NCBI RefSeq assembly: GCF_016900095.1
Contig: NZ_JACJJP010000005.1
Location: 1-64,000 of the forward strand
DNA length: 64,000 nucleotides
Source: Gemmiger formicilis
GTDB lineage: Bacteria; Bacillota; Clostridia; Oscillospirales; Ruminococcaceae
Direction of reading: 5' to 3'
This document shows positions 34,344 through 55,262 of the stretch, one piece after another (position 1 is the stretch's first letter; each line of letters opens with the position of its first letter). The translations under genes were made by a program, and so were the position numbers. The notes beneath the pieces are model-generated. The model did not search any database. It was not told the DNA's origin and saw only the letters and a list, made by a program, of their open reading frames with translations.

Positions 34344-35201
34344 TTAATGGGAGTGGCGCAGCGTGAGCGGCGCCACTCCAGTTTTTAGCTGGATGCGCTC
34401 ATAATTGTAGAAGTGAATATAGCGGTCAATCATCTCATTGGCCTCGCAGATTGAGGCCGGTTTATGGCGGTAAATACATTCAGTCTTGAGGATGGAAAAG
34501 AAATTTTCTGCCATAGCATTGTCGTAACAGTTTCCGCGTCTTGACATAGAGGGCGTAATGCCATAAGATTTTGTCAGGTTGAAGTATGCTTGTGAGGTGT
34601 ACTGGAACCCCTGGTCGCTGTGGAGCTGCAACTCCGCAGCGGCCCTTTTTTTCTCTCTGCGCATAGCCAGGCGAATGGTGTCCAGAACCAGATTTACTGT
34701 CTGCTCTGTACCAGTCTTGTAGGCAACAATGCTGTTATCATAAAGATCCCGAATCATGGACAGATACAGTACGCCTTGCTTCGTGTGGATGTAAGAAATA
34801 TCCGTTACCCATTTGCTATTGGGCCGGTCCGCAGAAAACTCCCTGTTCAGCAGATTCTTATACTTGTGAACTTGCTGTCCCATCTGCTGCCACTTCCTGC
34901 GCCGCCGGATCTCTGCGAGCAAATCATATTTCTCCATAATACGCAAGATAGTCTTGGGATTACGGTGGATGCCTCGCTTCTTCAGCACCAGCCACATTCT
35001 GCGGTAGCCATACGTACAAAAGCTGCGCTCTCGCTGTTCCGCGATGATTTCTGCAATAGCCGCGTCTTTCTCCGGCCTGCCCATACGATGGACAAAATCA
35101 TAATATCCGCTTCGGGACACCTGAAAGAAGCGACACATAACGGATACTGGATATTCATTTCTGTGCCGGTAGATCACGGCATATTTTGCCTTTGGCCTCA
35201 C
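34344..35201 (-). CDS. IS3-family transposase OrfB (DDE integrase)
   Basis: 285 aa. HTH_21 region with CTYGYRRMWLVLKKRG, then an rve catalytic core with Asp in WVTDISYI, Asp in LHSDQGFQY and Glu in NAMAENFFSILK. Full length and probably active. It starts at GTG, overlapping the OrfA stop as GTGA, so translation is coupled rather than using the more usual frameshift. Confidence 0.92.
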   Translation of the reverse strand: MRPKAKYAVIYRHRNEYPVSVMCRFFQVSRSGYYDFVHRMGRPEKDAAIAEIIAEQRERSFCTYGYRRMWLVLKKRGIHRNPKTILRIMEKYDLLAEIRRRRKWQQMGQQVHKYKNLLNREFSADRPNSKWVTDISYIHTKQGVLYLSMIRDLYDNSIVAYKTGTEQTVNLVLDTIRLAMRREKKRAAAELQLHSDQGFQYTSQAYFNLTKSYGITPSMSRRGNCYDNAMAENFFSILKTECIYRHKPASICEANEMIDRYIHFYNYERIQLKTGVAPLTLRHSH

Positions 35202-35470
35202 TTCCTTCCTGTGGAGCGCAGAAAATCCCGCAACAATTCGTTTTCCATCTTGAGCCGCTTGTTCTCGTACTTGTACTCCGCCAATGTTTTTGTAGGTTTA
35301 CGTCCTCGTGTCTTCGGAAGGACAGGTTCCTTTAGCCAGCACTGTATGGCCCGCCGACTGATTTCATATTCCCGACTCAGCGCACGTTGGCTTTCACCTG
35401 CGTGGATTCGTGACACCACTTCTTCTCGTATCCCTAACGGATACTTTTTTATCCCTTTTTTCCCAGACAT
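35198..35470 (-). CDS. IS3-family transposase OrfA
   Basis: 90 aa helix-turn-helix protein: ALSREYEISRRAIQCWLKEP, followed by a leucine-zipper-like YENKRLKMENELLRDFL. It binds the insertion-sequence ends together with OrfB. A hairpin (CCCCCTAATGTAG and its complement, about 35469-35512) lies at its 5' end. Confidence 0.9.
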   Translation of the reverse strand: MSGKKGIKKYPLGIREEVVSRIHAGESQRALSREYEISRRAIQCWLKEPVLPKTRGRKPTKTLAEYKYENKRLKMENELLRDFLRSTGRK

Positions 35471-35677: not shown

Positions 35678-36136
35678 TTAAACGGATTGCTGTAGCCGCT
35701 TGTCCACCGGAACTTCCGCCTGCAGCTTGCGGAGCGCTCCCAGCGAGATAGCCCGCTGGCCGTTTTTCTGCATTTTTCCGCAGTGGTCCCAGGCCAGTTT
35801 GCCGGGGCCGTTGTATTCCTCGGTAAAGGTCCCGTCCGGGTGGATCTTTAACACGAGCAGCCAATCCGGTTTGCTGGACAGCGCCACCCGGTCAATCTGG
35901 GTGGCCTTGATCTGCACGAGGCGTCCGTCGGGGGCTTTGGCATCGTGGGTTTTGGCGGAGGCTTCGAAGAGTTCCAGGCCATACCAGCTGGCAGCCAGGG
36001 CTTCCCCTATGCTGCCGATCATATGGCCGTCCGGCGTGTAATGTCTGCCGGGAAAAAGCTGCTCCAGTTCCCGGGAGATGGCATACAGTGCCTTGATCTT
36101 TTCGGCTACCGATTTCTGCAAAGAAATGTGGTTCAT
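35678..36136 (-). CDS. DUF6998 protein, PD-(D/E)xK nuclease-like
   Basis: 152 aa. TPDGHMIGSIGEALAASWYGLEL with E45, D65 (HDAKAPDG) and Q75-I-K77 (VQIKAT) reproduce the E...D...QxK pattern of PD-(D/E)xK nucleases, followed by YNGPG and KNGQR. DUF6998 proteins are found near restriction and defence genes. It overlaps the MazG-like gene by 4 bp and is the last gene of a four-gene minus-strand operon. It may be the effector nuclease. The IS3 copy lies just downstream. Confidence 0.7.
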   Translation of the reverse strand: MNHISLQKSVAEKIKALYAISRELEQLFPGRHYTPDGHMIGSIGEALAASWYGLELFEASAKTHDAKAPDGRLVQIKATQIDRVALSSKPDWLLVLKIHPDGTFTEEYNGPGKLAWDHCGKMQKNGQRAISLGALRKLQAEVPVDKRLQQSV

Positions 36137-36444
36137 TCCGATACTTCCTTCAGCAAAATCTTTTTGGCAAAGCCGCCGCGCTGTCGGCGCTTCTCTTTGC
36201 GCAGTGCAGTGAGCTCGTCCCAGGTCCAGCCCCGGGCGGCCACAACAGCCCCCATGACCTCCAGCAGGTCGGCCAGTTCTTCCAGGGATTTGCTCTCCTG
36301 GTATTCGGCCAGCTCCTCGTTCAGCTTTTCATCCAGCAGCTGGAGGTACGCTTCGTCGGAGAGGGTTTCCCAGATACAGGTTTTGCCGGAAGCCTCGATG
36401 ATCTCGGGGATGTGGTCCCGGACCAGTTTGTGGTAGGATTTCAT
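36133..36444 (-). CDS. MazG-like nucleotide pyrophosphohydrolase
   Basis: 103 aa all-alpha NTP-PPase. LVRDHIPEIIEASGK, then EKLNEELAEYQESKSLEELADLLEVM gives the metal-binding ExxE...ExxD pattern. Members hydrolyse (d)NTPs to monophosphates; phosphoribosyl-ATP pyrophosphatases are related. In this operon it could deplete or sanitise nucleotides during phage attack. It is 5 bp after the PLD-ATPase gene and overlaps the DUF6998 gene (ATGA). Confidence 0.82.
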   Translation of the reverse strand: MKSYHKLVRDHIPEIIEASGKTCIWETLSDEAYLQLLDEKLNEELAEYQESKSLEELADLLEVMGAVVAARGWTWDELTALRKEKRRQRGGFAKKILLKEVSE

Positions 36445-36449
36445 TTAGG

Positions 36450-38447
36450 TTACCCCTTTCGGAATCGGTCAAGCCAAGACTTCTTAAAAGGAATGTCGAA
36501 GAATTTTCGCGCCTCTTCCAGATTCATAATAAGCCACTCGCGGGATTTGTGCGGTTCCAGCGTTTCAGGTAATTCTTTCAGAATGCGGTCCGCTTCCCAA
36601 GGAGCCCCGGCGTTGTAGCGCAGTTCGTTTGCCCGCTCGGAAATTTCAAAGGAGGAGCGGCTGATTTGCCAGGCGTTTCGGATCGTCTCCCTTGCGTAGC
36701 GGCCGGTGACTTTTTCGCTGAAGTAATCTTCCAGCGTAAGCGGACGCATATAGGAAGGCAGATCGTTTTCGGTACACGCAGAGAAAATGCCCAGCAGCAC
36801 CTGCGAGGATGCCGCCAAGATATCGGGCGCACTCTCCGACGCATCGTCTTTCATTTCCTCCAGTAGGTCAGATACTACCTCCAACATTTTCCGGAGATAT
36901 TCCCGGTAGAAAGAGGTTCCGATTTCACGCTGAACGGTGCGTACCACACTGCTGCGCATAACCTCGGTATTGGTCAGGCCTGCCTGCACACGACAGATTA
37001 CCGTGCGGCGGGTTACTTCCGGGGCAACCGCTTTCACATCCTCGTTGGCACTGATGACGACAGCAGGATATTGCAGCAGGTGATCGGAGACGCCAAAGGC
37101 ATCGTTTTTGATGGTTTCGATGGCATGCTGGTTGAAACGGGTCTGGGTCAGGTCGTCCACGATGATGGGGGCGCCCTTGACGGTGCGTTTCAGATTCTCA
37201 ATGCTGGACCGAGTGAAATCCGGCGCGGAGAGCTTGGGCTTTTGCCCAATCATCATCTTGAGCAACGTCTCCAAAAAGCTGGTTTTACCGGCTTTGCTCT
37301 GCCCATAGATAAGGCCGAATACAGGGTACGGAAGAAGGTTCTGATTGTAGCGGACAGCTATATCCCGCATGCAGGCCATAAACGGCGAGCAGAAGAACCA
37401 GTTGGCAAACTCGAAATAGCGCCGCTGCATGCCGGCCACATCGCCATGGAACTTTTCGTAGCCGGCCATGTAATTGAGGAAAAGCTGCACATCTCGGGCA
37501 ACATCTTCCTTGGGCGGATTCAGGTCCATATCTGTTCCATTCAGTCGGACGATAGCCTCATCCGGAAATACCTGCAGCTGCGGGTATTCGCTTTGTAGCT
37601 CTTTCTCTTTGGTCTTGGTGGCAACGACCTGGCGGCGAATGGATTTGATCTTTTCAGGAGAAAGCAGAATTTTTCCCTTCTTATCGGGTTTCGGTACGGA
37701 AGGTGCCAATTTGTCTGCCAGATTTTTTACATCCAATGCAAAGCGGACTTCTTCTTTGGCCTCCTCCACAGGCTGGAGCACCAAAGCCTTTTGTGTACGG
37801 ATTGTTCTGGCAATGGGAAGCTGCTCCAGGTTTTCGCCATCATCTGCACAGAGCAGGGAATCTTTGGCAATCTGGTCGGTACTTTCCTCCCGCAATTGGC
37901 AGTAGCAGTCCCAATACCATTGATAGGCTTCTTCACCGTCCAGATAGCATATATTTTCCCGCTGGTGTCCACCGAAGGCAGAAAAGGACATGTTGGCGGA
38001 TCCCATGATCACACGCTTGCGGCCATCTGCTGCGGAAAGAAGATAGATCTTTTCGTGGGATAGTACGCTGTGAGCAACATAGAACCGCAGCGTTCCCTGA
38101 TCGATGCGAGAGACAAGGTCCACCTTCATTTTGCCGGCTGTTTCCCGTATGCGTTCCACCATTTTGCATTGGTATGCCATCACTTCCTGGAGCGAATAGG
38201 AGATAACCTCATCACATCCAAAGATGATTTCCGCCTGTTCGAATAAGTCCAGAAGGCGATACACAAAACCAATTCCCGAAGAATAGGTGATGGCATGTAA
38301 CGTATCAAAGCCAGCGAAAAGATCTTGCCAGGAAACCGTCTCGGCACCGGAAAATTCCATCTTGACCACATCCAGGTTGCCGTGTCGGGAATTTTTCGCC
38401 TGGGTTTGCGCTTCTTCGATCATGCCGAACATGGACAAATTTTCCAT
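36450..38447 (-). CDS. PLD-type nuclease domain fused to a P-loop ATPase
   Basis: 665 aa. Residues about 60-175 resemble a phospholipase D nuclease domain with one HKD-like motif (HEKIYLLSAADGRKRVIMGSAN near 131-153; a single motif implies dimerisation). About 330-560 is a P-loop module: Walker A GQSKAGKTS near 380, Walker B APIIVDDL, and a sensor-like VVISANEDV. The C-terminal 110 residues are helical. I know no named system with this fusion. It is 45 bp after the DUF3427 helicase and 5 bp before the MazG-like gene. The role as a defence motor or sensor is inferred from context. Confidence 0.7.
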   Translation of the reverse strand: MENLSMFGMIEEAQTQAKNSRHGNLDVVKMEFSGAETVSWQDLFAGFDTLHAITYSSGIGFVYRLLDLFEQAEIIFGCDEVISYSLQEVMAYQCKMVERIRETAGKMKVDLVSRIDQGTLRFYVAHSVLSHEKIYLLSAADGRKRVIMGSANMSFSAFGGHQRENICYLDGEEAYQWYWDCYCQLREESTDQIAKDSLLCADDGENLEQLPIARTIRTQKALVLQPVEEAKEEVRFALDVKNLADKLAPSVPKPDKKGKILLSPEKIKSIRRQVVATKTKEKELQSEYPQLQVFPDEAIVRLNGTDMDLNPPKEDVARDVQLFLNYMAGYEKFHGDVAGMQRRYFEFANWFFCSPFMACMRDIAVRYNQNLLPYPVFGLIYGQSKAGKTSFLETLLKMMIGQKPKLSAPDFTRSSIENLKRTVKGAPIIVDDLTQTRFNQHAIETIKNDAFGVSDHLLQYPAVVISANEDVKAVAPEVTRRTVICRVQAGLTNTEVMRSSVVRTVQREIGTSFYREYLRKMLEVVSDLLEEMKDDASESAPDILAASSQVLLGIFSACTENDLPSYMRPLTLEDYFSEKVTGRYARETIRNAWQISRSSFEISERANELRYNAGAPWEADRILKELPETLEPHKSREWLIMNLEEARKFFDIPFKKSWLDRFRKG

Positions 38448-38492
38448 AGGTTTCCTGCCTTTCTCCTGTGATTCAATTTCTGCAAGCAGAAA

Positions 38493-41400
38493 TCATCCGA
38501 CGACCAGTTTGTTGGTTTTCCGCAGATATTTTGCCGGAATGGGCACATCCAGCTTCCAGGTGATGCTCATGGGACGGCTGCCCTCATGCTTGACATAGTT
38601 GGCGGTGCCCAGAAAGGTGTAGGGGGCTGCCCCGGCGGAATCGTTTTTGGTTTCCCGCACAAATAGCAGAATCTTGCTGCCGCGCTGCCGATGGTGGATG
38701 TAGCGCTGTCCGGTGGGAGAAGTCTCCGATGTGGTGCTCTGGCTTTGCCAGTGGAACAGGTTCTCGTTGATGGAATAATCGTGGTACATCGTGGTGGGGG
38801 AATACTCTTTATCGGATTTGTTCAGCGTCACAAAGAATACATCTACCTTCTTATCGGGAAGCCATTTCACGCCTTCCCGCACGGTGGCGGGTTTATAAAA
38901 GTCTAAACCCAACAGAATCTGATCGCGGGTATAGGTACAATGTACATCCAGCGGGCAATCAAATCCCAGCTCCACCGGCTGGTCAAGAAAATCGATGGCA
39001 TCAAATCGCAGCCGAAGCAATTCCTGCAATTCCTCCAGCAAGATCGGGCTGTGAGCGAGACCATGCAGATGGCCCAGAACTTCCTCGTCCTGCCAACTTT
39101 CGGCTGCTTTTCCCCAGACGGTAATATAAAACATCTGCAGCATCCGCTGCTCCAGCGGGGGAAGGACTGCAAAATCCACACCATCCAGCCGGGGCAGAAG
39201 GTCCAGCAAAAAGCGAATCCACCGACGGGAATCCAGCGCCGCCAGCCGGACGAGAGCGGAGGAAAGCGCCTCCTCGGCGGGCTCCTGGAAATCCGGCCGC
39301 ACACCGGCAGCCACACACAGACGGGCGAAGCTGTCCTTTCCCTTGCCGTACAAAGTGCGCAGATCCAGGTGGTAATACCTCATAAACTCCCGCAGCGTCA
39401 GCGGCAACCCGGTATCCTCGGTAAAGGTGCGAATCCGGTTGATAAGCCCGGAGCGGACGCCAAAGGATGCGCGAAGATTGTCCAGAATAATCTGGGTGGG
39501 CTTTTTCTCCAGCTGGATGTAGCAGCCCTTGGGAACGGAAAGAAAACCGTGCTTTATTTCATAGGCCAGATTGTGGTTGGTACGGGACAAAAGGGCGGAA
39601 AACTTTTCCTCAAAATTGTATTTGCGGTTGGCCTGCCCGATGAAGTCCAGAACCGTCAGGCATTCCTTCTCCTCGCAAAGGCGCAGACCACGGCCCAGCT
39701 GCTGCAAAAAGACGGTCAGAGATTCCGTGGGCCGTAAAAACAGAACGGTGTTTACCTCGGGAATATCCACACCTTCGTTGTAGATATCCACCACGAAGAG
39801 AAAACGCAGTTCGCCCCGGGCCAGACGAGTTTTTGCATGCAACCGCTCTTCTTCGGAGGAAGTGCCCACCAGACTTAAAGAGGGCAAACCGTGCGCATTG
39901 AAAAACTCAGCCATAAAGCGGGTATGTTCCACCGAGACACAGAAGCCCAGCCCTTTTACGGCATTCAGATCGGTGACATAGCGGTCCAGCGTATGCAGAA
40001 TATGTTCTGCCCGCTGCAACGCCACAGCCCGGTTGAGGGAGTACAGGTTGGTCAGTTCATTCTTGTCATAGCCGCCGCGGACCCAGCACAGGTCTTTCAG
40101 ATCGACGGTATCTGCCACGCCAAAATATTGGAAGGGACAGAGCAGTTTGCGGTCGATGGCTTCCGGCAAACGGATTTCGGCGGCGATCCGACCTCCGAAA
40201 TAGTCCAGAATGTTTTTGCCGTCCATTCGTTCGGGGGTGGCGGTCAGACCCAGTAGAATCTGGGGATGAAAATGTTCCAGCAGTTGCTGATAGGTGGGCG
40301 CGGCGGCGTGGTGGAACTCGTCCACCACGATGTAATCGTAATAGTCGGCAGGCAGCCGATCACACAGCGATTGGGAAGTGACTGTCTGGATCGATACAAA
40401 GAGATGATCAAGGGATGCAGGGCGGCTGCTGCCTACAAACAGTTCGCCAAAGTTCGGATCGCGGAGAATGTTCTGGAAGGTATACAAACTTTGCCGCAGA
40501 ATCTCCTCCCGGTGGGCCACAAAGAGCAGCCGGTTGGCATGGCTGGGATGCTGCCGGCAGAACCGCCGGTAGTCAAAAGCGGAGATCACCGTCTTTCCGG
40601 TGCCGGTGGCGGCAACGACCAGGTTCCGTGTGAAGCCCCGAACCTTCCGCTCGGCATCCAGCTTGTCCAGAATTTCCTGCTGGTAGGCGTAGGGTCGGAT
40701 GTTGAACAGCATGTCCCGCGGAAGCTCACTACCGTGTGTGCGTTCCGCCTTCAGGGCGCGGAGCAGACGTTCGTGTTCTCCTTGTTGGTAGAGTTCAAAT
40801 TCCGGTGCGTTCCAATAGACATCAAAGGTGGAGGCTATCTTCGCCATGGTACTGGGCAGATCTTTGGCACTGACCTTCACATTCCATTCCAGACCGCTGG
40901 ATATGGCCACCTTGGACAGGTTGGAAGAGCCCACATAGGCCGTGGAGAATCCGCTGTTCCGGTAGAATATGTAGGTTTTGGCGTGCAGGCGGGTACGGTC
41001 GGTGTCGTAGCTGATCTTGATCTGCGCGTTGGGCAACTGGCTCAGCGCTTCGATGGCTTTGGCATCGGTGGCTCCCATGTAGGAGGTGGAGATCACCCGC
41101 AGCTGTCCGCCGTTTTGGGTGAACTGACGCAGCTCCTCGATGATCAGTCGAAGGCCGCTCCATTTGATGAAGGATACCAGCATGTCGATGCGGTCGGCAC
41201 AGGCAATCTCTTTTTTCAGTTCGGAAAACATCTGGGGCTCGCCCACCGCCCCGGTGAACAGGCTGCTGCGGGCCAGCGGCGTCTCAGGGCGTGTCAGGTC
41301 TGTCGCAGTTTTTCCGGCGGCCAGCAGCGGGTCGTTGGCCCGTAAAAGAGCAAGAAGCTGCTCTGCCCTGCCGTCGACGCACAGCGGGGCAAAGTCAGCT

Positions 41401-41648
41401 TCTTGGGTTGTGGTTTCTATGGTCTGGACCAGCCGGTTTGCCAGCGCAATCTGGGCAGAGAGGTCCCCACCCTGGTCGGCAACATCGTCCAGACCGCGCT
41501 GGATCACGTCGGCAAGATACTGCGCCAACACCTGGGAGGCTTCGGCCTTGTCCAGGACGGCAGAGGCCTGGCAGGCAGCGGGCAAGGCAGAGAGTTCCTC
41601 CCGCATCTGTTGGTTGATCACCTGTTCGTACAGGCCGGGCTGTAACAT
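38493..41648 (-). CDS. PLD-DEAD/DEAH helicase-DUF3427 protein
   Basis: 1051 aa. Order: PLD-like HKD domain about 120-300 (LHAKTYIFYRN, YVGSSNLSK near 221-240), superfamily 2 helicase with Walker A ATGTGKT near 350, VVDEFHHA (DEFH box) near 440, LGLTATPERMDG, and helicase motif VI QQLGRGLR near 660, then a C-terminal DUF3427 domain (about 700-1050). The family is common in defence islands, where it is predicted to unwind and cut foreign nucleic acid. The start is placed at MLQPGLYEQ with AAAGGTGTG upstream. It heads the four-gene operon. Confidence 0.88.
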   Translation of the reverse strand: MLQPGLYEQVINQQMREELSALPAACQASAVLDKAEASQVLAQYLADVIQRGLDDVADQGGDLSAQIALANRLVQTIETTTQEADFAPLCVDGRAEQLLALLRANDPLLAAGKTATDLTRPETPLARSSLFTGAVGEPQMFSELKKEIACADRIDMLVSFIKWSGLRLIIEELRQFTQNGGQLRVISTSYMGATDAKAIEALSQLPNAQIKISYDTDRTRLHAKTYIFYRNSGFSTAYVGSSNLSKVAISSGLEWNVKVSAKDLPSTMAKIASTFDVYWNAPEFELYQQGEHERLLRALKAERTHGSELPRDMLFNIRPYAYQQEILDKLDAERKVRGFTRNLVVAATGTGKTVISAFDYRRFCRQHPSHANRLLFVAHREEILRQSLYTFQNILRDPNFGELFVGSSRPASLDHLFVSIQTVTSQSLCDRLPADYYDYIVVDEFHHAAAPTYQQLLEHFHPQILLGLTATPERMDGKNILDYFGGRIAAEIRLPEAIDRKLLCPFQYFGVADTVDLKDLCWVRGGYDKNELTNLYSLNRAVALQRAEHILHTLDRYVTDLNAVKGLGFCVSVEHTRFMAEFFNAHGLPSLSLVGTSSEEERLHAKTRLARGELRFLFVVDIYNEGVDIPEVNTVLFLRPTESLTVFLQQLGRGLRLCEEKECLTVLDFIGQANRKYNFEEKFSALLSRTNHNLAYEIKHGFLSVPKGCYIQLEKKPTQIILDNLRASFGVRSGLINRIRTFTEDTGLPLTLREFMRYYHLDLRTLYGKGKDSFARLCVAAGVRPDFQEPAEEALSSALVRLAALDSRRWIRFLLDLLPRLDGVDFAVLPPLEQRMLQMFYITVWGKAAESWQDEEVLGHLHGLAHSPILLEELQELLRLRFDAIDFLDQPVELGFDCPLDVHCTYTRDQILLGLDFYKPATVREGVKWLPDKKVDVFFVTLNKSDKEYSPTTMYHDYSINENLFHWQSQSTTSETSPTGQRYIHHRQRGSKILLFVRETKNDSAGAAPYTFLGTANYVKHEGSRPMSITWKLDVPIPAKYLRKTNKLVVG

Positions 41649-41873
41649 CGAAATCACACCTTTGGCAGTTGATTTGAATCTATACAAAGATAGTATACCA
41701 GATAAAGAGTCCTATTGTTGGGATTGCAATAATAAAATCCCATTTTATTGCAAAATTCTTCTTTTATTATAGAAAATCTAAAGTAGCTAGACAAGAATAA
41801 GTTGTGCATGGATTCTTACGCTACAATTCACGACGGATCCCGCATGAAATCGGGGGCCCCATAAATAAAATAT

Positions 41874-41926: not shown

Positions 41927-43465
41927 TTATGTGGATTTGTTCCTTTTCGCTTCAATCTTATGAAGGCGAATCTCGAAATCTTTTGCGCTGTCATACATGC
42001 CGACTTTTTGATAATAATCGATTGCCTGATTGCAGATGTCTATGGCGGCAGCGTAGTCTTTCTGTTTTTCGTAGATGATTTGCAACCGTTTGAATGCAGG
42101 AATAATTCCATTAAAGGGACCAATCTTACTATACTGCTCGGCTAGTTCGGCCTTACTATATACGCCCTTTAATGCCTCCACCCTTTTTTGCTCGTCACGG
42201 ATATGTGCTTCCTGTAGCGAGGAAAGGCTATTCAAATCCTCTTTACAATAAAAGATACATTGTTCAACATATTTGTCGTCCAATGCTCTAAAACGATAAT
42301 AGAAGTTTTGTAACTGAATCAATGCAAAATGCCGGTCCAAGGCATTCTTGCTTGAAGCACGATACGTTTTTAAAAGTTCCTTTTCCGCGGCTTCATCAAA
42401 GCAGGGAACATTTATTGATTTTTTTGATTGTTGTTGCAGTTTTTGGTCGGGCGGTAAGGTACCGGTCTTGCGCATATCGGCGACAGCATTCTTTACTTCC
42501 GAATGGGCTTCTTCCAGAATATCATATCCGGCTTTTTTTAATTTGAAGCACTCGGTTAATAAGGGTACGTCAACACTTTGCTGGCCAATAGAAATATTTG
42601 CAAAAACGGGAATGCTCTGCCTGCGGAGCTTTTTCCATTCGGTGTGCGTCACATACTTATCGATGGGGAGCGTATCTTGTCCTAAGCGCTTTTTCATAAC
42701 CACTGTGAGTTTTTCCAGAAAAAGATCGGGATATCTTTTGATATAATTCTGGTTTGAGAACTCAAAGGTTTTACACATGCGCATAAGATCCTGCGCAGTG
42801 AGAGGCTGAGACAATCCGTATTTGCACAAAAGGTAGAGATTGTCAGAAAAATTCACCTCGTAAGTCTTATCGAGGGACTGATAAAAACGAAGGGCCAGAT
42901 CGGGCTCTTGCCGGGTTAAGCAGGTTAGAATGCTGGCGCATGCAGAATAATTTTGAAAGGAATTGTTGGAATAGACGTCACGAAGCTTTAAGATTACGTC
43001 AAAAGCGCGTTTGTAATCGCCTTCCAGCAGATGTCTTTCCAAACCATAATAGAAAAGAAACACATAGCCAATGTCAAAAGACCCTGAATAAGGATCTGCC
43101 AGAAACTTCCAGTATACGCCGCGCTGCTCTGGAGACAAATCAGCATAGGAAGGAAAATAAGGAGGTCTTACAATCTCCTTCGGATTGACATCCATCCGAA
43201 CAGGTAAGCGAAGAGATATGAGGCTGGGTTCTTGTGTGGGAAAGGATGAAAAAGCGATACGCACACCATTGTAAATGTGAGAAGTCTGTTTTGCATGTGC
43301 ATAATAGTTCTTTTGAGGTCCATCCGAAAACCAGAGAAGAGGCTGTACATCGGGATGGACGGTAATCGGTGCCTGGTAAGTTGCCAAGGATCGAGAGGGC
43401 CCCACTATGCCTGTAGTTGTTTGGGGTACCTTTTTCTTCTTAAAGAAAATATCAAAAATTCCCAT
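41927..43465 (-). CDS. TerB N-terminal domain protein with TPR-like C-terminus
   Basis: 512 aa. Residues about 60-150 match TerB_N: YNGVRIAFSSF, PSYADLSPEQRGVYWKFLADPYSGSFDIGYVFLFYYGLERHLL. The C-terminal 150 residues look like TPR repeats (FKRLQIIYEKQKDYAAAIDICNQAIDYY). A basic KKKK tail follows the first helix. TerB-type proteins act in tellurite/phage stress complexes, but the function here is unknown. It precedes the helicase operon on the same strand, separated by a terminator. AT-rich relative to the backbone. Confidence 0.75.
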   Translation of the reverse strand: MGIFDIFFKKKKVPQTTTGIVGPSRSLATYQAPITVHPDVQPLLWFSDGPQKNYYAHAKQTSHIYNGVRIAFSSFPTQEPSLISLRLPVRMDVNPKEIVRPPYFPSYADLSPEQRGVYWKFLADPYSGSFDIGYVFLFYYGLERHLLEGDYKRAFDVILKLRDVYSNNSFQNYSACASILTCLTRQEPDLALRFYQSLDKTYEVNFSDNLYLLCKYGLSQPLTAQDLMRMCKTFEFSNQNYIKRYPDLFLEKLTVVMKKRLGQDTLPIDKYVTHTEWKKLRRQSIPVFANISIGQQSVDVPLLTECFKLKKAGYDILEEAHSEVKNAVADMRKTGTLPPDQKLQQQSKKSINVPCFDEAAEKELLKTYRASSKNALDRHFALIQLQNFYYRFRALDDKYVEQCIFYCKEDLNSLSSLQEAHIRDEQKRVEALKGVYSKAELAEQYSKIGPFNGIIPAFKRLQIIYEKQKDYAAAIDICNQAIDYYQKVGMYDSAKDFEIRLHKIEAKRNKST

Positions 43466-43899: not shown

Positions 43900-45075
43900 T
43901 TATAGCCCCATCACCTTTCCCAGCTTTTCCTGTGCCTCTCGCTTGGTTTTATCAAAGGCATGGGCATAGATATCCAGTGTGGTACTGGGCTGGGAATGAC
44001 CAAGCAGTCCTGCAACGGTGCGGACATCCACGCCCTGGGCAATGAGCAGGCTGGCGTTGGTATGGCGCAGGCTGTGGACAGATAAGTTTTGAGGCAACCC
44101 ATTTTCTTTGAGAATTTTCTTGAATCGGAAGGTAAAGGTCGTGGGTACCATGGGATCGCCGCTCGGCTGCCGGAAGAGGTAATCTTCCTCCGTCAGGGTC
44201 TGCCCTTCTGCCTGTTCCATCTGCCAGGTACATTCCTGCTTCCACGCTTTCAACAGCTTGCACATCTCTTTACTGATGTACACCCTCCGGTTGCCGCTTG
44301 CAGTTTTTGGCTCCTTGGTAAAGATCTTCTGTCCGCTGAGTTTGACTACCGTCCGCTGCACATGGATGGTCCGGTGCCTCCAGTCAATGTCAGACCAGCG
44401 TAATCCGCAGGCTTCGCCGCGGCGCATCCCTGTGGCCAGTACCAGTTTGAAGTACACTTCATATTTCATGCTTTGTGTTTCCAGAGCGGCAATCAGCTTC
44501 TGCACCGTTTCCTCGTCGGCCACCGGGCGCTCCTTGCGCACGCCTTTAGGTTTGTACACCCGCCAGGCTGGGTTATGGGTCAGGTAGCCTTCATCCACGG
44601 CACCGGACAAGATGCTGCACAGTGTGTTGTGCAGTCCCTCCACCGACCGTTCCGATAGCGGCTGTCCATCCGTCAGTTTAGGCTCTGAGCGCATGGCTTC
44701 GTAGAAGGCACGGATGGTTTCCTTGCGCAGATCGGTCAGTTTGTAATGCCCCAGTGCTGGCAGGATGCGCCGGATATCCTGCTGGTCACGGGAATAGGTA
44801 CTGGCTGCCAGCTTGCCTGGGGCGATATCCCGCAGCCAGTGTTCGGTATACGCTGCCAGCGTCATGGCATGGTTCACGGGTTGTGGGTCATGCCGTACTT
44901 CCCGCTCGAACAGAACAGCCTGTTCGTTCAGCCATTTTTTGCACTGGCCGGGCGTGAGATCTTTCGGTGGATGTACTGTTTTCTGTGCAGCTTTCAGCCG
45001 GTTCCCTTCGTAATCGTAGCCGCGGGATACTACGATGAGATAACTGTTTTGCCCTCGTTTTCGGATGCTTGCCAT
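43900..45075 (-). CDS. Tyrosine recombinase/integrase of the second element (first of pair)
   Basis: 391 aa, homologous along its whole length to the integrase at 3004-4182 and with the same catalytic set (TGMRRGE Arg, EPKTAS Lys, HSLRH, LLGH, LDIYAH Tyr). AAAGGAG precedes MASIRKRG, which fixes the start; the RBS region is also nearly identical to that of the first copy. The gene is 99 bp from the GNAT gene. It points leftward, toward the tRNA 3' half at 34.0 kb. Confidence 0.93.
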   Translation of the reverse strand: MASIRKRGQNSYLIVVSRGYDYEGNRLKAAQKTVHPPKDLTPGQCKKWLNEQAVLFEREVRHDPQPVNHAMTLAAYTEHWLRDIAPGKLAASTYSRDQQDIRRILPALGHYKLTDLRKETIRAFYEAMRSEPKLTDGQPLSERSVEGLHNTLCSILSGAVDEGYLTHNPAWRVYKPKGVRKERPVADEETVQKLIAALETQSMKYEVYFKLVLATGMRRGEACGLRWSDIDWRHRTIHVQRTVVKLSGQKIFTKEPKTASGNRRVYISKEMCKLLKAWKQECTWQMEQAEGQTLTEEDYLFRQPSGDPMVPTTFTFRFKKILKENGLPQNLSVHSLRHTNASLLIAQGVDVRTVAGLLGHSQPSTTLDIYAHAFDKTKREAQEKLGKVMGL

Positions 45076-45213
45076 TTTGACCACTCCTTTGTGTGTATTG
45101 ACACAAAGGATACCAACCTCTGCGATACAAAGCTATCACCAAACCCAACGAAGAACGGCCACGATACTTGTGCAAACCGGGCAAAACACCAAAAGTTTGC
45201 AAACATAACTAAT

Positions 45214-45280: not shown

Positions 45281-46453
45281 TCATTCATCCAGGGCGGCAC
45301 AGTATTCTTCCTCTGCCGGCTCCAGCAGAGAATCAAACAACCCGGCAGCCTCCTCTTTGCAGATATCCTGCGGATGGCAGTAGGTTCGTTCCAGAAAGGC
45401 GGTATCTGCGTGTCCCAGCAGGTCGGCTGCCACCTGCTTGCTGGTTCCGTGTTCCAGCAGATAGGTGGCAAAGAAATGCCGCATGGTATGCAGGTGGTAT
45501 TCCTCGGGAAAACCGTTCCGGTCATACAGATGCCGCAGGTGACGGCTGAAGCTGTCAGGATGAATCGGCCTCCCCTTACGCTGGAAAATCAACCCGTTCC
45601 AGTCAGCCCCGTTGTTTTCCAGAGCCTGCTCAGTGAACAGCTCTCCCAGATCGTCGAAGACGATCTGCGGCATGACCACGATGCGGGTGCGGTGGTTCTT
45701 GGTGTCACTTTCCAGTACGCCCTGCCCTACCACAGTGCTGCGGGAATGTTGGATCTTCACCTGATTCCCGCCGTGCAGATCACACCACCGAAGGGCACAC
45801 AGCTCACCGCGGCGCAGACCGGTGGAGAGGGCCATCAGGTAATACACTCTATAAAGCAGCGGCTCCTGCAGAATGCACTGCAGGAGCTTTCGCATCTCCC
45901 ATTGTTGGGGAATGCGTTGCTGAGGTTTTTCCACCCGTACTTTTTCAACCCGATGGGCAGGATTATAGAGCAGGATGTCATTTTTCGCTGCGTCCTGCAG
46001 CACAGCGGAAACGGCATCCAGATATTTATGTACGGTGTTTTCGCTCAGAGGCTTGCCGCCCCGCCCCGGCCGCTTGCGCAGTTCTTCTGCAAATTCCTCC
46101 AGGACCATGGGACGGATCTTGCAGAGCGGCAAACCGCCAATGAAAGGGTATGCCAGCTCCAGCATTTTTCGGTAACCGGCCAGCGTACAGGCTTTGTATC
46201 GCTTGGCTGCCCTGTCCAGCCAATGCTCCGCGTAGGCCTCGAACTTGGTGTTTTCACTTTCGTCGATGCCGGTGCGGAATCGTTTTTCCAGGCGCTCAGC
46301 CTCCGCATAGACATACTGCCTGATGCTGCGCTTTGGAATCTCCTTGGGGACATCAATGGTGCGCGCCTGCATCCGTTTTTTCCCTGTTGTAGTGTAGCCA
46401 TTACAAACTGTAATTTTATACTTTCTTTCTCCGCGTTGTTGAATATAGGCCAT
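45281..46453 (-). CDS. Tyrosine recombinase/integrase of the second element (second of pair)
   Basis: 390 aa, homologous to 4337-5530 (MAYIQQRGERKYKITVCNGY). Catalytic Arg in TGLRRGE, HTMRH, LLGH and Tyr in ERTYCH are present. It starts 16 bp after the RepA-type ATPase gene, so replication and integration genes share one transcript. The dual-recombinase order is identical in the two elements. Confidence 0.92.
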   Translation of the reverse strand: MAYIQQRGERKYKITVCNGYTTTGKKRMQARTIDVPKEIPKRSIRQYVYAEAERLEKRFRTGIDESENTKFEAYAEHWLDRAAKRYKACTLAGYRKMLELAYPFIGGLPLCKIRPMVLEEFAEELRKRPGRGGKPLSENTVHKYLDAVSAVLQDAAKNDILLYNPAHRVEKVRVEKPQQRIPQQWEMRKLLQCILQEPLLYRVYYLMALSTGLRRGELCALRWCDLHGGNQVKIQHSRSTVVGQGVLESDTKNHRTRIVVMPQIVFDDLGELFTEQALENNGADWNGLIFQRKGRPIHPDSFSRHLRHLYDRNGFPEEYHLHTMRHFFATYLLEHGTSKQVAADLLGHADTAFLERTYCHPQDICKEEAAGLFDSLLEPAEEEYCAALDE

Positions 46454-49120: not shown

Positions 49121-52100
49121 CTAAAAGGTCAACTTACCAACATAACTTTCCCCATTATAGGAAATGACGCGGACCTTGATGAGGTTCGAATCTTTTTCTT
49201 GGATAAGCTTCTTCCGCTTTTGTTTATTGATTGATTTTATAACTATGGGGTAGCATTCTTCTCCACGGATGAAAACGCCGGAAGCGGAATCGGTGTTAAC
49301 GGATTTCAGTTTTACTTCCACGATAGATCCATTGGCAATAACAGGGGCGGTATCTGTAGTAAGTTCAGCCGACTGCAATTTTGGCGGATTATGTTCTTCG
49401 GCGGAATGAGAAGAACCTTCCAGTAATTCTGCTAAGGTACCAGACTTGCTGGCACTGAAAAAAGAAACTTGATATTCAACGCTCGTGGTATTGCAAGAAG
49501 AATTGAGAATCACACAGGGAAGTTTTGGCTTTTGACATAGCTGCCTCACGACTTCTTCAATGCCGCCATAATATCGAATCTCGTCCTTCGGAAAACGCAT
49601 CAAGTCGTTGTCTACAGAGACACCAGCACGGGAGCCATTGACCGTGCCGTTAATCCATTTCCCGTTGGACGATTTTTCACCATCCTTAAAGCAGGCAGCT
49701 GCACCACGAGGGAGGCTCTCTATACGAGGAGAACTGACTTCTTTCGTGTTTGTTGAGGTGCTGGCAAAGGAAATTTTTGGGTAGACCTCTGCGCGGGCGC
49801 GCTGTAAAACTTCCTGGACGTTTAGGGATTCGCCAGAGCTCAAATCCGCAGAACCATAGGAAAGTGCAACGGTAGTTGTAACACTAAAGCCCATTATAAA
49901 AGCAACTTTGTGCCCAAGCTGGTTCGTGCTAAGAGAACTGGACGAATTCCGTCCAATGCGCATCCGTACTGGTTCGGATGACCATACCTGAGGATCGTAG
50001 ATTTCAAAATTCGCATTAGACTGATTCAGACAGTTACTGAAATGAGCGTGCACGATAACCGGGCGTGCATTTTGCAAATCCATATCTGCAACCATTTCTT
50101 CTTCTGTTCTACAAGCGGTCACATCAAACAGTTGTCCCATTTCTGTTTTATCAACCAGAAGATCCCTTGTACGCTCAATATTGCACCGACGTCGATCAAA
50201 GTCACCTGCGGCATCATATTGTGTGATACGCTGTATTAATCTTTTCAATTCATCGCGGGAAGAAAGGTTTCCGGATTTGATGGAAAGAAGCAGTAAAACT
50301 CTGCGATAATAATAGGGCTCCGGATTTCGATTGCTGCGGAACTGATCTTCCATTTCAACCCAACTTGCCGATGTAACAAGACCGCGTTCAATGGGAACGT
50401 TGAGGTGCTTGGACAATAGCATCCAATAGTGGAACATTTGGCTGCGCAGTCTGTAATCAGCATAGTTGTTAATATCGTAAGGCTTTTGTAGAAGGATGGT
50501 AATGTCTTCCAGGATCTTCTGGGCATTTTTGAGATTCCGGTAGAATGGTGTGGAAGGCGATTTGCTTCTGGCTTGATCAATCAAAGTGAAAATCAAATTG
50601 CGTAGAGCAATACCGTATCCGACTATATCTTCAGTTGCACGAAGAGAATCCACCTTGCTTTGATAGTACTCCACAGCCTGTTGATAGCTACCGAATAGAA
50701 TTTGGGACTGGAATCTGCTTTTATAGTCCCGAATTTTCGCGTCTGCAATATCGCCCAAATCCGTGTAGGAGGCTGCCTCCTGAGCTGCACTTATGAACTC
50801 GGACTGAAATTCCCGCGTGGTGGGATCCATTTTGGAAAGATCTTCAGCAGAACGGATACCGCGGATCCGGTATAAAAATTCCAGATATTTGAATAGAAGT
50901 TCCAGCTTGCTGGGATAACCGTAGTCTGGACTTCCGAAGCGAATAGTGTCGTCAAAATATCCGCACGCATCCTTCACATCGGTTTGAATGGCATTGCGAG
51001 CGGATGTGTCCCAATTATTTTCTTCTATGTGAAATTGCTCGTTCAATTTGTCCAGCAGGGAGCAACCCGCCATATGGTAAATATTGGGGTCTTCATCGGG
51101 CATATATGCTATAGCGTTGCAAAAACATTCGTAGGCTTTTGCATGATTATGTGCACCGCGGCTGTACATACGTCCTAAATGGGCATAAGAATGGGAAACA
51201 AGCCGTTGCGTCAGTTGCTGGACTCTGTCTGGACGAGAAGGGTTATCGGTTTGCTCTTTAAAAAAGCGGATGGCAAAAGGTTCAAATTTTTCTGCAAGAT
51301 GCTGCATGAGCATACGCTGATTTTCCGGAACATTGATTTCAATCATGAGGGCAGAGAGGTACTGATCTTGAGCCGTGGAACTGGGGGCTTTATTCTGAAT
51401 TAAAATTGAAATCAGAAGATCCATCAAATTTTCGGAAAGCTGTTGCCCCATATCAGCGATATGATCAATGAGACTATAGCTTAAATCATACAACGCGTTG
51501 GGAATGTTGTCATGAGATTTGTAATACTTTTCGCAATATAACTCAAAATAGCGCTGACTGAGCAGATGATGCATAAACCGATAGCAAACAGCGCCCGAAA
51601 TTTGGAGGTCAGTAGTGATCAGGCTGCTGGCTGCAGGAACCAGTGTCAGAAAATCCTGGCGAATATCAAGATTCAACAGCTTCCGGACCAAAGTGAAGGG
51701 AACGTTTTTGTAACCATAGCGGTCGCAGATGGCTATGAATGCCAGAACATCGGCATAGCGTCTTTCAGTACAACCGTTCAGTGCCTTATACACATACTCG
51801 TCGATGGAAAAATCCTTCTCCTTATAATAAAGGCCGATAATGAAAGGCGTGCGCATTTTTCCATGAATATCTCTGTCGAAGTTCCCGTCCTTGGCGCGCA
51901 AAATATCTTCCGGAAGGGAACTTACACTGCGGTATCGCTCTTTGAGAACTTGAATGTCCTTGTCTGGTATGGAAGCAAAAAACTCACAGTTTGCCTGTGG
52001 ATAATTCCGTAAAATGCTGTTGTCACTCCGGCAGGCGGCAACAAGAACACAACGCCGTTCCAGCCGGCAGACTGCTTCACACAAATTGCTGAAATAAGGT

Positions 52101-53950
52101 AATGTATCATCGGCAAGCAGAATAATTGGGGATTTTTGTAGTACGACATCATATAGATGTTCAATTTGTGATTTAAAAGACTTTTGGTTATATGTACGAA
52201 CTTCCAGAACGGCATAGTCGGTATGTAAGTCCCACACAAGCTGACGAGCCAAAGTGGTACCTCCGATACCTGCTGTATGATTTATAAAAAATAGACGCTT
52301 TTGGGGAATTTCTTGCGTCTGTCCTAACAAGCTGCGCATTTTTTGTTTCATCTTGTCAAAATCAACAGATTTGCGCAGACACGGGATAGTTTGATTGGCA
52401 ATCGTATTCCAGGATGCGGTTGCGCCGGAATAAAATTTCTGACGCAGTTCTTCGGAGTGGTCACTGCCCTCTTGTTCACAATTGTCATATAGAGCAAAGA
52501 AATCTGCTGCCAAGTTGTTTCTCTCATTTTCGGAGAGAGAAATAGGGCCGTTGAACCCCGGCAAAGAAAATGTGGTATCTAAAGATTCACGAGGGTGCCA
52601 ATAATTTTTGTTCTCGTAAAATGCTTTGTAAAACAAGGAAATGGGGGATAATTGATAACAAAAATGCTTCTGCATATCATCTCCGTCATCAAGATACTCG
52701 CTTTCCAGAATTTTTTCTTTGTTCGTGTTGGAAAGTCCGACCCATGTTATAAAGTAGTCTTTTGTTTTTAGAGTTTCGGATGTGAAAGCTTCGATGATAC
52801 ATTTGGTTAGAGAATAGTTGTCGGTTAAGACAACGACATGGATCATACGTTCACGCTTCTTGGCTTCGAGGAAAAGTTGGATAAAAACTTCTTTCATCCA
52901 ATTATAACATTGGATTTTTGAGGAGGTACCGGGAAGCCCTTTTAAGAACGATATATAGGAGGGAATGGAAGGTCCTTTGGGGGAAGGCACAAAATTATAG
53001 TTCTGATATTCGCCGCAACGGTACCATAGTGTTTGATCTACAGGAAGTCCATCCAGATTGTTGGCAATATCACGATACAGGACTTCCTTCAGGATTCTAT
53101 TGTGATTGACGGTGCTTAACAATCCTCCACAATCGGAATATCCGTCAAAATCAATGACAAGATTCCACGGAAGATTGGCAACGGCCTCCCGATAATCTCG
53201 GCGAATATCGTGTACAGAGTCGGTGATTAGGATGGAGGTAGTGTCGTTGAAGGAAAAGCTGCATGGCGGCATCAAAAATTTGTCATAGCAAAAGCCTTCG
53301 ATCGAAGAAGTGATATTGAGATCAAAAGTCGGGAGGGTATCGCAATAATCGGAATCCAGAAATATTAGCATTTCCCGGATGACATTATAACAACGTAACG
53401 CGGATAAACACAGGGTCCCTCGGGCAGCATGAACCAACTTGGAACGTGCACTGCGTTCAAAAAGCAGTGCATAAAAATCAATGGAAAAGGTACCAACCTC
53501 GTCGCGGAGGACTTTCGTGATAATTTCAGTCATCTTCCATACGTCAGCAGTACAATCAATCCAAGTCTTATTGCCATTTCCACTTGTATTGTAACTAATT
53601 CCGTGCCGACTCAGAAGAAAACCATCCGGAGTGTTAGGACCTATAGAATACATGGACAGGATAAGCTTTACCAAAGCATCTGACATCACAAAATAAGGGG
53701 CTTTGGCGCTATTAGCAAAGTCAAGATTGTTTTGAAAATCCTGTGCGATGTCAAAGTATGTTTTTGAAGCGTCACTCGTTTGGCTTAGCTCCTCCTCAAT
53801 TGTTTTGATACCCAACTCGAGTTCTGTTTTGAGCAACGCACTATAGTGCTCAAAGGAATGCTGGTACCAACGGGCAATATTTTGTACGTGTTGGTGATAT
53901 TCCTTTTTAAGCGTAGCGTTCTTTTCAATTTCATCACAAAATTTGAGCAT
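49121..53950 (-). CDS. SAMD9-like STAND NTPase, 1609 aa
   Basis: A giant soluble protein. Residues about 1-500 are unrecognised (a WNLVIDFDGYSDCGGLLSTVN block near 275-295 is striking). A P-loop is near 553-566: FINHTAGIGGTTLARQLVWDL, the GGTTLA form diagnostic of SAMD9-family STAND NTPases, followed by SPIILLADDTLP as Walker B and a VLVAACRSD sensor. About 680-830 looks like a winged-helix region, 850-1280 TPR-like helices, and 1530-1605 (GSIVEVKLKSVN...VRVISYNGESYVGKL) an OB-fold. The same architecture occurs in animal antiviral SAMD9. RBS AAGAAGGTGA. It is AT-rich and alone on the minus strand. Confidence 0.75.
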   Translation of the reverse strand: MLKFCDEIEKNATLKKEYHQHVQNIARWYQHSFEHYSALLKTELELGIKTIEEELSQTSDASKTYFDIAQDFQNNLDFANSAKAPYFVMSDALVKLILSMYSIGPNTPDGFLLSRHGISYNTSGNGNKTWIDCTADVWKMTEIITKVLRDEVGTFSIDFYALLFERSARSKLVHAARGTLCLSALRCYNVIREMLIFLDSDYCDTLPTFDLNITSSIEGFCYDKFLMPPCSFSFNDTTSILITDSVHDIRRDYREAVANLPWNLVIDFDGYSDCGGLLSTVNHNRILKEVLYRDIANNLDGLPVDQTLWYRCGEYQNYNFVPSPKGPSIPSYISFLKGLPGTSSKIQCYNWMKEVFIQLFLEAKKRERMIHVVVLTDNYSLTKCIIEAFTSETLKTKDYFITWVGLSNTNKEKILESEYLDDGDDMQKHFCYQLSPISLFYKAFYENKNYWHPRESLDTTFSLPGFNGPISLSENERNNLAADFFALYDNCEQEGSDHSEELRQKFYSGATASWNTIANQTIPCLRKSVDFDKMKQKMRSLLGQTQEIPQKRLFFINHTAGIGGTTLARQLVWDLHTDYAVLEVRTYNQKSFKSQIEHLYDVVLQKSPIILLADDTLPYFSNLCEAVCRLERRCVLVAACRSDNSILRNYPQANCEFFASIPDKDIQVLKERYRSVSSLPEDILRAKDGNFDRDIHGKMRTPFIIGLYYKEKDFSIDEYVYKALNGCTERRYADVLAFIAICDRYGYKNVPFTLVRKLLNLDIRQDFLTLVPAASSLITTDLQISGAVCYRFMHHLLSQRYFELYCEKYYKSHDNIPNALYDLSYSLIDHIADMGQQLSENLMDLLISILIQNKAPSSTAQDQYLSALMIEINVPENQRMLMQHLAEKFEPFAIRFFKEQTDNPSRPDRVQQLTQRLVSHSYAHLGRMYSRGAHNHAKAYECFCNAIAYMPDEDPNIYHMAGCSLLDKLNEQFHIEENNWDTSARNAIQTDVKDACGYFDDTIRFGSPDYGYPSKLELLFKYLEFLYRIRGIRSAEDLSKMDPTTREFQSEFISAAQEAASYTDLGDIADAKIRDYKSRFQSQILFGSYQQAVEYYQSKVDSLRATEDIVGYGIALRNLIFTLIDQARSKSPSTPFYRNLKNAQKILEDITILLQKPYDINNYADYRLRSQMFHYWMLLSKHLNVPIERGLVTSASWVEMEDQFRSNRNPEPYYYRRVLLLLSIKSGNLSSRDELKRLIQRITQYDAAGDFDRRRCNIERTRDLLVDKTEMGQLFDVTACRTEEEMVADMDLQNARPVIVHAHFSNCLNQSNANFEIYDPQVWSSEPVRMRIGRNSSSSLSTNQLGHKVAFIMGFSVTTTVALSYGSADLSSGESLNVQEVLQRARAEVYPKISFASTSTNTKEVSSPRIESLPRGAAACFKDGEKSSNGKWINGTVNGSRAGVSVDNDLMRFPKDEIRYYGGIEEVVRQLCQKPKLPCVILNSSCNTTSVEYQVSFFSASKSGTLAELLEGSSHSAEEHNPPKLQSAELTTDTAPVIANGSIVEVKLKSVNTDSASGVFIRGEECYPIVIKSINKQKRKKLIQEKDSNLIKVRVISYNGESYVGKLTF

Positions 53951-54105: not shown

Positions 54106-54180
54106 TTGAATGTAAAACGGAAAATTGAGGAGGAAGGCACCGCGTGCCTTATTTCAGATACTGTTCCAGCGCCGCTTTGA
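54106..54180 (+). other. RBS with a 24-codon stub ORF
   Basis: AAAGGAGG at 54092-54098 precedes TTG and 24 codons (MNVKRKIEEEGTACLIS...). It runs into the antisense 3' end of the WYL gene, so it looks like the beginning of a gene whose remainder was replaced. Confidence 0.3.
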
Positions 54181-55246: not shown

Positions 55247-55262
55247 TTGCCTCACTCCCTAT

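Follow-up and report, generated by a model that had tools for sequence, protein, structure and literature searches.

What is a gene for a small nucleotide pyrophosphatase doing in a row of genes for putative nucleases? The question is raised by a locus of Gemmiger formicilis in positions 1 to 64,000 of the forward strand of contig NZ_JACJJP010000005.1 (assembly GCF_016900095.1). We refer to this whole stretch of 64,000 nucleotides as the window and to its own genome as G000; other loci and genomes carry numbers beginning with L and G. Four open reading frames (ORFs), A, B, C and D, follow one another on the minus strand, with a gap of 45 bp between A and B, a gap of 5 bp between B and C, and an overlap of 4 bp between C and D.

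Gene A, 38493-41648, minus strand: SauUSI-like; 1051 residues from an ATG (1064 residues from a TTG at 41687)
Gene B, 36450-38447, minus strand: 665 residues; NgoFVII-type PLD domain and P-loop ATPase
Gene C, 36133-36444, minus strand: 103 residues; small MazG-like all-alpha nucleoside triphosphate (NTP) pyrophosphatase of the KLVRD subclass, by motif
Gene D, 35678-36136, minus strand: 152 residues; DUF6998, PD-(D/E)xK-like

The original prediction, made from the sequence alone, had taken these genes for a new defence operon. The co-directional genes and their junctions are found as it gave them, and its domain assignments hold, through Pfam for A, B and D and through the EExxE...ExxD motif for C. 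What we find is a restriction enzyme of an established kind, set in a modular operon that is conserved and of which we found no description; this kind of enzyme, and the adjacency of MutT to SauUSI homologs, were already on record.

Gene A and SauUSI

The Pfam domains of gene A are, in order, PLDc_2, ResIII, Helicase_C and DUF3427, and its residues 119-1040 match the PADLOC mREase_IV model PDLC03659 (E 2.5e-233, 775 bits). The closest solved structure is PDB 7clg (953 residues, 'putative helicase', E 1.8e-87), which aligns with A at 144-694 (nuclease and ATPase) and at 938-1023 (C-terminal recognition domain), and which we take to be SauUSI. This identity is borne out by the residues His119, Lys121, Asp858 and Trp868 of the SauUSI paper, which fall at those positions in the 7clg chain. 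The elements expected of such an enzyme can be located in A as follows.

N-terminal PLD nuclease: H222, K224, S242, N243, E254
Superfamily 2 (SF2) helicase-like ATPase: Walker A at 349, DEFHH at 443, QxxGRxxR at 649
C-terminal DUF3427/SRA-like recognition domain: W929, F939, D957, W967

In its order of PLD nuclease, SF2 ATPase, coupler and SRA-like target recognition domain, in the HxK motif and in the aspartate, tryptophan and phenylalanine of the pocket, A resembles SauUSI (7clg; mREase_IV in PADLOC). The SauUSI paper describes a recognition pocket of SRA fold made of Tyr831, Phe841, Ile842, Trp868 and Asp858, and these align with W929, F939, V940, W967 and D957 of A (for the 831-929 pair, the offset was extended by eye). 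Across 42 aligned A rows, the window included, H222, K224, S242, N243, E254, D957 and W967 are invariant, F939 is kept in 41, and residue 929 is aromatic in 40. By these sequence criteria gene A is a SauUSI-like type IV restriction enzyme, not a new nuclease. It is probably modified-cytosine-dependent, and its predicted activity is the ATP-dependent cleavage of DNA carrying 5-methylcytosine (m5C) or 5-hydroxymethylcytosine (hm5C). We rejected the notion that the four genes form a nuclease system new from scratch, because A is SauUSI-like (PDLC03659, 7clg).

SauUSI and DUF3427 have already been described (PMC7159879, PMC3874153, PMC7913695). Unlike SauUSI, A has about 100 extra N-terminal residues and fits PDLC03659 best, reaching only 296 bits with PDLC03658. 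It also sits in an operon, whereas SauUSI is reported to be sufficient as a single polypeptide. The Azaca and DISARM models gave no strong match with A, only short stretches of the PLD domain (ZacB 1.2e-4, DrmC 9.5e-5).

Other A genes were observed in settings of their own. A second full-length A in the same genome (L049:8710-12685, G000:C27; 71% identical) is followed by a 145-residue ORF and a Nudix gene. The homolog at L077:7014-9671 has 885 residues, is without the recognition domain, and is followed by an unrelated 87-residue ORF in an array that is otherwise a complete A-B-C-D-R. SbcD-like genes were seen by eye directly after A in L054:3691-7750, where an SbcC-like gene is present too, and in L063:950-2086; they are another possible partner type of A.

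The modular array and its links

Is the four-gene set more than a chance arrangement of one genome? The neighbourhood search suggested in the original prediction found the order A-B-C-D in three other loci, L067 (Gemmiger formicilis An723), L070 and L077. L067 is 96.5% identical in nucleotides to the window from 41725 to 35707 and not beyond, and the upstream flanks differ: the window has a TerB_N gene there, L067 an oppositely oriented gene that clusters with a GmrSD_N protein. Because the identity stops at the cassette edges and the flanks differ, A-B-C-D seems to move as a block. The TerB_N gene (41927-43465) was rejected as a cassette member, since the similarity stops at 41725 and the L067 flank is different. 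Between the window and L067, the ratio of nonsynonymous to synonymous substitution rates (dN/dS) of A and B is 0.081 and 0.079; it is lowest for C (0.045) and highest for D (0.224). These values point to purifying selection on all four genes.

The set extends beyond what had been predicted. In L067 D is followed by a fifth gene, R, which is cut off by the end of the contig and is 84% identical to the R of L077 over 367 residues. R encodes an SF2 helicase like RadD, and its N-terminal part gives a sub-threshold PD-(D/E)xK match (MTES_1575). L077 reads A-B-C-D-R and L070 reads A-Nudix-B-C-D-R with a broken R; L079 has an A-like gene followed by Nudix-B-C-R, L074 (the same as L014) has a decayed A followed by Nudix-B-C, and L051 and L053 have A-Nudix-C-R without B. 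A-B-C-D is thus part of an array built from modules, A-[Nudix]-B-C-D-R. The window has lost R: at the point where this gene starts in L067, L070 and L077 it carries an IS3 element, and no intact R was found in G000. A second, decayed copy lies 31 kb away in the same genome (L004:6357-7546; G000:C55, about 66.4-67.5 kb). It consists of C, D and an internally deleted R', and is 92% identical to the window over 740 bp. A search of a plasmid collection with the IS region gave two partial matches only.

We considered that IS3 had truncated gene D, and rejected this, since its end resembles that of D in L050 and L077. D belongs to DUF6998 (Pfam, E 4.8e-52; also phrog_35225), and E45, D65 and QIK 75-77, a candidate for the E...D...(Q/E)xK core of PD-(D/E)xK nucleases, are invariant in seven sequences; there is a weak match to PADLOC mREase_II, the type II methyl-directed restriction enzymes (8.7e-5). 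Of the papers searched, two contain the name DUF3427 and none contains DUF6998.

As a claim of novelty the original prediction holds in part. The set is undescribed as far as our search of the literature extends: nothing was found that describes A together with B, C, D or R, with most subscription journals outside its coverage, and a paper on deoxydinucleases in genomic islands does not, in its available part, concern the A-B-C-D set (PMC11706625). A, on the other hand, matches described SauUSI-like type IV enzymes, and for this one component the original prediction is thus refuted on a ground that it had itself named. The four genes are likewise a recurrent unit but not an obligate one, with partners at 15 of 75 B loci and at none of eight plasmid A homologs.

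How firmly is the Nudix gene attached to A? We assembled 41 A loci, 17 being close loci from a search of the order and 24 coming from the 27 of a search of the phylum. Left out of the former were seven A-like matches of 31-37% identity and a fragment in G027; left out of the latter were L149 and L188, where no A ORF was found, and L191 (133 bp downstream). Of the 41 loci, 12 have a Nudix gene on the same strand no more than 100 bp 3' of A, and 14 have one when the limit is set at 450 bp. Five Nudix genes occur among the 608 other genes that were counted at these loci (Fisher 3.7e-12, kinship ignored): two lie 3' of A, at 433 bp (L049) and 318 bp (L052), two lie 5', at 6 bp (L170) and 42 bp (L179), and one is 2.3 kb away (L175). 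We placed the Nudix label of 15 A proteins on a maximum likelihood tree of 42. A minimum of 10 changes accounts for it, compared with a mean of 12.65 after shuffling, and 25 of 300 shuffles gave a number as low. The link has therefore been gained or lost many times and is weakly clustered on the A tree, rather than being one inherited linkage. MutT homologs labelled 'DNA repair' stand beside SauUSI homologs of Streptococcus in the legend of a Fig. 9 (PMC7641849). That adjacency is like the one counted here in 12 of 41 loci; it differs in being a mention in a legend, with no count or mechanism, in a paper whose available text does not name MazG. In another paper (PMC12904381) 'MutT' turned up in the names of authors only.

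Gene C, for its part, is found with A or R. It has no Pfam match, and by sequence no PDB relative below E 0.7. Its EExxE (43-47)...ExxD (56-59) motif, accompanied by KLVRDxIP, is what we take to be the metal-binding signature of all-alpha NTP pyrophosphatases. Among 12 aligned homologs, E43, E44, E47 and E56 are invariant and D59 is kept in 11, with a glycine in L070. C is thereby predicted to be a small, MazG-like all-alpha NTP pyrophosphatase that hydrolyses deoxynucleoside triphosphates (dNTPs). It shares the EExxE...ExxD signature with MazG and DCTPP1, and unlike them it is short, of the KLVRD type, without a Pfam match and tied to restriction-type helicases. The 295 genomes of the order hold 17 C matches in 14 genomes at E <= 1e-8 and 10 loci in eight genomes at E <= 1e-30. 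All 10 of these close loci are near an A- or R-type gene, nine of them within about 2.6 kb.

Window: A
67-kb copy: D, R'
G013:C28: A, Nudix, R
G194: A, Nudix, R
G161: decayed A, Nudix, B
G036: A at 51 bp
G082: A-like protein of 928 residues, 36% identical
G125 and G247: R
G013:C1: stop-split A at 6.9 kb

A is carried by six of the eight genomes with a close C, compared to 14 of the 287 without one (Fisher 1.1e-6, kinship ignored). Two of the seven weaker matches were inspected by eye (G107, G145) and lie among housekeeping genes. Since distant relatives of C are common in viral contigs (123 loci, of which the best 80 were kept), the link with A or R holds for the close C subclade only. At L299:2369-11568, C and R occur with an m5C-methyltransferase-like gene 4.6 kb upstream (by eye), and three unknown genes lie between.

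Gene B and the surroundings of the cassette

The PLD domain of B matches RE_NgoFVII (Pfam, 9e-8). Its catalytic elements are the following.

PLD half-motif: H131xK133, GSAN 149-152, E164
P-loop ATPase: Walker A 382-389, Walker B 427-433, sensor-like N468, Arg 480-481

In 46 B sequences H131, K133, S150, N152, E164, Walker A from G382 to T389, D431-D432, N468 and R480-R481 are invariant or nearly so. The half-motif is shared with PLD nucleases of the NgoFVII/BfiI type and with NgoAVII/CglI; B differs from these in that its single chain also bears a P-loop ATPase, at the C-terminal end, and in that we detected no B3 domain. The ATPase part has no significant match in Pfam, NCBIfam or PHROGs, a B profile has no PDB match at E 0.1, and the Azaca ZacB model matches only a short stretch of the PLD domain (0.0099), which is no strong match. 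No relative was found among 42 candidate stretches in viral contigs. We infer that B is a PLD nuclease coupled to an ATPase that may be of the SF3/AAA+ kind.

B occurs in six of the 295 genomes of the order, G000 included, and at 75 loci of a collection of 84,980 species. The 46 sequences come from phyla that include Bacillota, Lentisphaerota, Kiritimatiellota, Spirochaetota and Fibrobacterota, a range to be read with caution because contaminated metagenome bins occur. At 15 of the 75 loci B has an A-like, C or Nudix gene within 7 kb; many of the contigs are short, and in five loci no B ORF was called. B is an uncharacterised family that mostly lives apart from A. Which genes, then, are its neighbours? 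From 51 of the 68 loci with a full B ORF, 74 close same-strand neighbours were listed and 73 scanned. The list was made by greedy ORF calling, which misses short genes that overlap others, the window's C and D among them, while the linkage counts use all ORFs. Among the best 25 of 85 Pfam families were ResIII (6), the Schlafen-group-3 helicase (5), AraC-type helix-turn-helix (4), NERD (3), HsdM (2), HsdR (2), GmrSD (2) and Csm6 (2); PADLOC gave mREase_IV 5 and REase_I 5, and AlkZ-related genes occur twice. One protein can be counted under several of these families, the cassette loci are among those counted, and the counts stand without a background set. Ten restriction-like neighbours, a hand-picked and thus biased sample, include HsdR, HsdM, GmrSD, MmeI and Schlafen matches among others.

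The window was also predicted to be a mobile, defence-rich setting, and such it is, with an IS3 transposase, two tyrosine integrases and defence-like genes. Mobile-element ends around the cassette were looked for and not located. The closest features are these.

IS3-type insertion sequence, 34344-35470, minus strand: orfB (transposase) 34344-35201, orfA 35198-35470; about 0.2 kb past D
TerB_N protein, SngA-like (PADLOC SngA 3.8e-14), 41927-43465, minus strand: upstream of A
Two tyrosine integrases, 43900-45084 and 45281-46453, minus strand: 2.3-4.8 kb upstream of A

More defence-like genes lie at 49121-53950, 54149-55255 and 58643-60040, all on the minus strand; they include a gene for a 1609-residue nSTAND_NTPase5 protein with a WYL-type neighbour, and one for a BnzB-like protein. 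By DNA similarity, at least three related two-integrase modules occur within about 90 kb of one contig (window 3003-5530 and 43900-47609; L005:8926-12747), and an AAA_25 ATPase gene follows the module at 43900. An AlkZ-related gene at 10654-11385 has a relative of 77% identical DNA at L004:4521-5294.

A possible guard of the nucleotide pool

If A is a SauUSI-like enzyme, what is the reason for a pyrophosphatase beside it? The reading to which we tentatively lean, while holding it to be somewhat short of probable, is that A destroys modified DNA and that C or Nudix clears away modified dNTPs, so that the host DNA is not marked through salvage. A would recognise modified DNA through its SRA-like C-terminal domain, translocate with its SF2 motor and cut with its PLD nuclease. 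C, or Nudix in other loci, would guard the nucleotide pool by hydrolysing modified dNTPs, most likely 5-methyl- or 5-hydroxymethyl-dCTP, that arise when shredded modified DNA is salvaged or that a modifying phage supplies. In this way modified dNTPs would be kept out of the host DNA, where A would cut. B and D may be accessory nuclease proteins that widen or finish the degradation; in the fuller arrays R, a helicase with a restriction-enzyme-like N terminus, comes after D and could take part.

This reading is built on homology, catalytic and pocket residues, conserved order, low dN/dS, and the linkage of A with Nudix and of C with A or R; from these we infer which modification A recognises, what C hydrolyses, that C or Nudix acts as a guard, and what B, D and R contribute. 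An analogy supports the reading: 5-methyl-dCTP is a substrate of relatives of both types of enzyme. NudG is reported to have a kcat/Km of 3e5 M-1 s-1 on 5-methyl-dCTP at pH 9.1, MutT activity being low (PMC3744803), and DCTPP1, of the MazG superfamily, is reported to prefer dCTP and its methylated and halogenated derivatives and to alter global methylation in human cells (PMC4491611). The SauUSI paper reports that the enzyme shreds DNA. Shredding would help to release modified nucleotides, and salvage of these presumably takes place in this host.

Several observations weigh against this reading. The glutamate that in SauUSI lies five residues after the lysine, in HxK(x)4E, is absent in 42 of 42 A rows, and A and its 41 relatives share F228 and R230; for lack of this glutamate we file A as a SauUSI-like sister branch and not as SauUSI, and its specificity may differ. 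The guard reading led us to predict that A-bearing genomes lack m5C methylases, and this was rejected: 12 of 20 have one, versus 112 of 275 others (matched by eye), and G000 has two matches of its own. Since A genomes are not depleted of these methylases, the guard idea is mistaken unless A recognises a narrow context or a different modification. The NudG (pyrimidine) and MutT models give the Nudix proteins similar scores, most of them under the curated cut-offs, so that 8-oxo-dGTP is as likely a substrate. Furthermore, the window copy has no Nudix gene and has lost R, the eight A homologs on plasmids have neither Nudix nor B, C or D within about 4 kb, and Nudix and C are both missing at many chromosomal A loci. 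No guard gene can therefore be generally required by A.

The lack of these partners on the plasmids suits the strongest of the alternatives, that A stands alone and that B, C, D and R, each an anti-phage or repair gene in its own right, share a defence island and move with one another without joint action. It would also fit the 60 of 75 B loci with no A-like, C or Nudix gene within 7 kb (many contigs being short), the several kinds of restriction proteins that B adjoins, the other defence-like genes of the window, and a Nudix label nearly as scattered on the A tree as a shuffled one. Mere co-residence, however, does not readily explain junctions that overlap or are 5 bp apart, the same order in several loci, A or R near 10 of 10 close C loci, or a Nudix frequency beside A far above that among the other genes of the same loci, and we regard it as rather doubtful.

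We consider it unlikely that the array makes an offensive attack on nucleotides, in which C or Nudix destroys dNTPs, or the modified dNTPs of a phage, to starve replication while A, B and D degrade DNA. C does accompany two kinds of helicase effectors, and MazG is listed as a predicted, unvalidated defence domain in DefensePredictor (PMC13092281); but C and Nudix are small proteins of the house-cleaning type, without an added sensor domain, and the data hold no sign of a trigger. The original prediction had spoken of draining nucleotides, which is possible. Because C and the alternative Nudix both belong to house-cleaning families, the removal of unusual dNTPs would be favoured over general depletion. 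A sanitation role, with Nudix and C removing oxidised dNTPs such as 8-oxo-dGTP and A attacking, or being mis-triggered by, damaged bases, would agree with the similar MutT and NudG scores and with the AlkZ-related glycosylase genes in the window and among the B neighbours (twice in 73), but it is quite improbable given an A pocket of the modified-cytosine type and the preference of a MazG-like relative for dCTP and its methylated and halogenated derivatives (PMC4491611).

Type IV enzymes attack modified DNA, and cells recycle nucleotides. How the hosts of these enzymes keep modified bases, once recycled, from marking the host DNA is, to our knowledge, rarely asked. One may speculate, with considerable doubt, that these enzymes have an exchangeable firewall of unrelated pyrophosphatases, the MazG-like C or Nudix, against salvaged or phage-derived modified dNTPs, which would solve the problem of self-harm, and that B founds an unnamed family of PLD-ATPases that aids several restriction types. 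B is in any case a family with no significant model over its ATPase, present at 75 loci in several phyla and often among restriction genes. If the speculation is true, the presence of C or Nudix beside A would let the question of self-marking be tested directly, by means of two small genes, and would offer a reason why genes for MazG and MutT turn up repeatedly in the neighbourhood of restriction enzymes.

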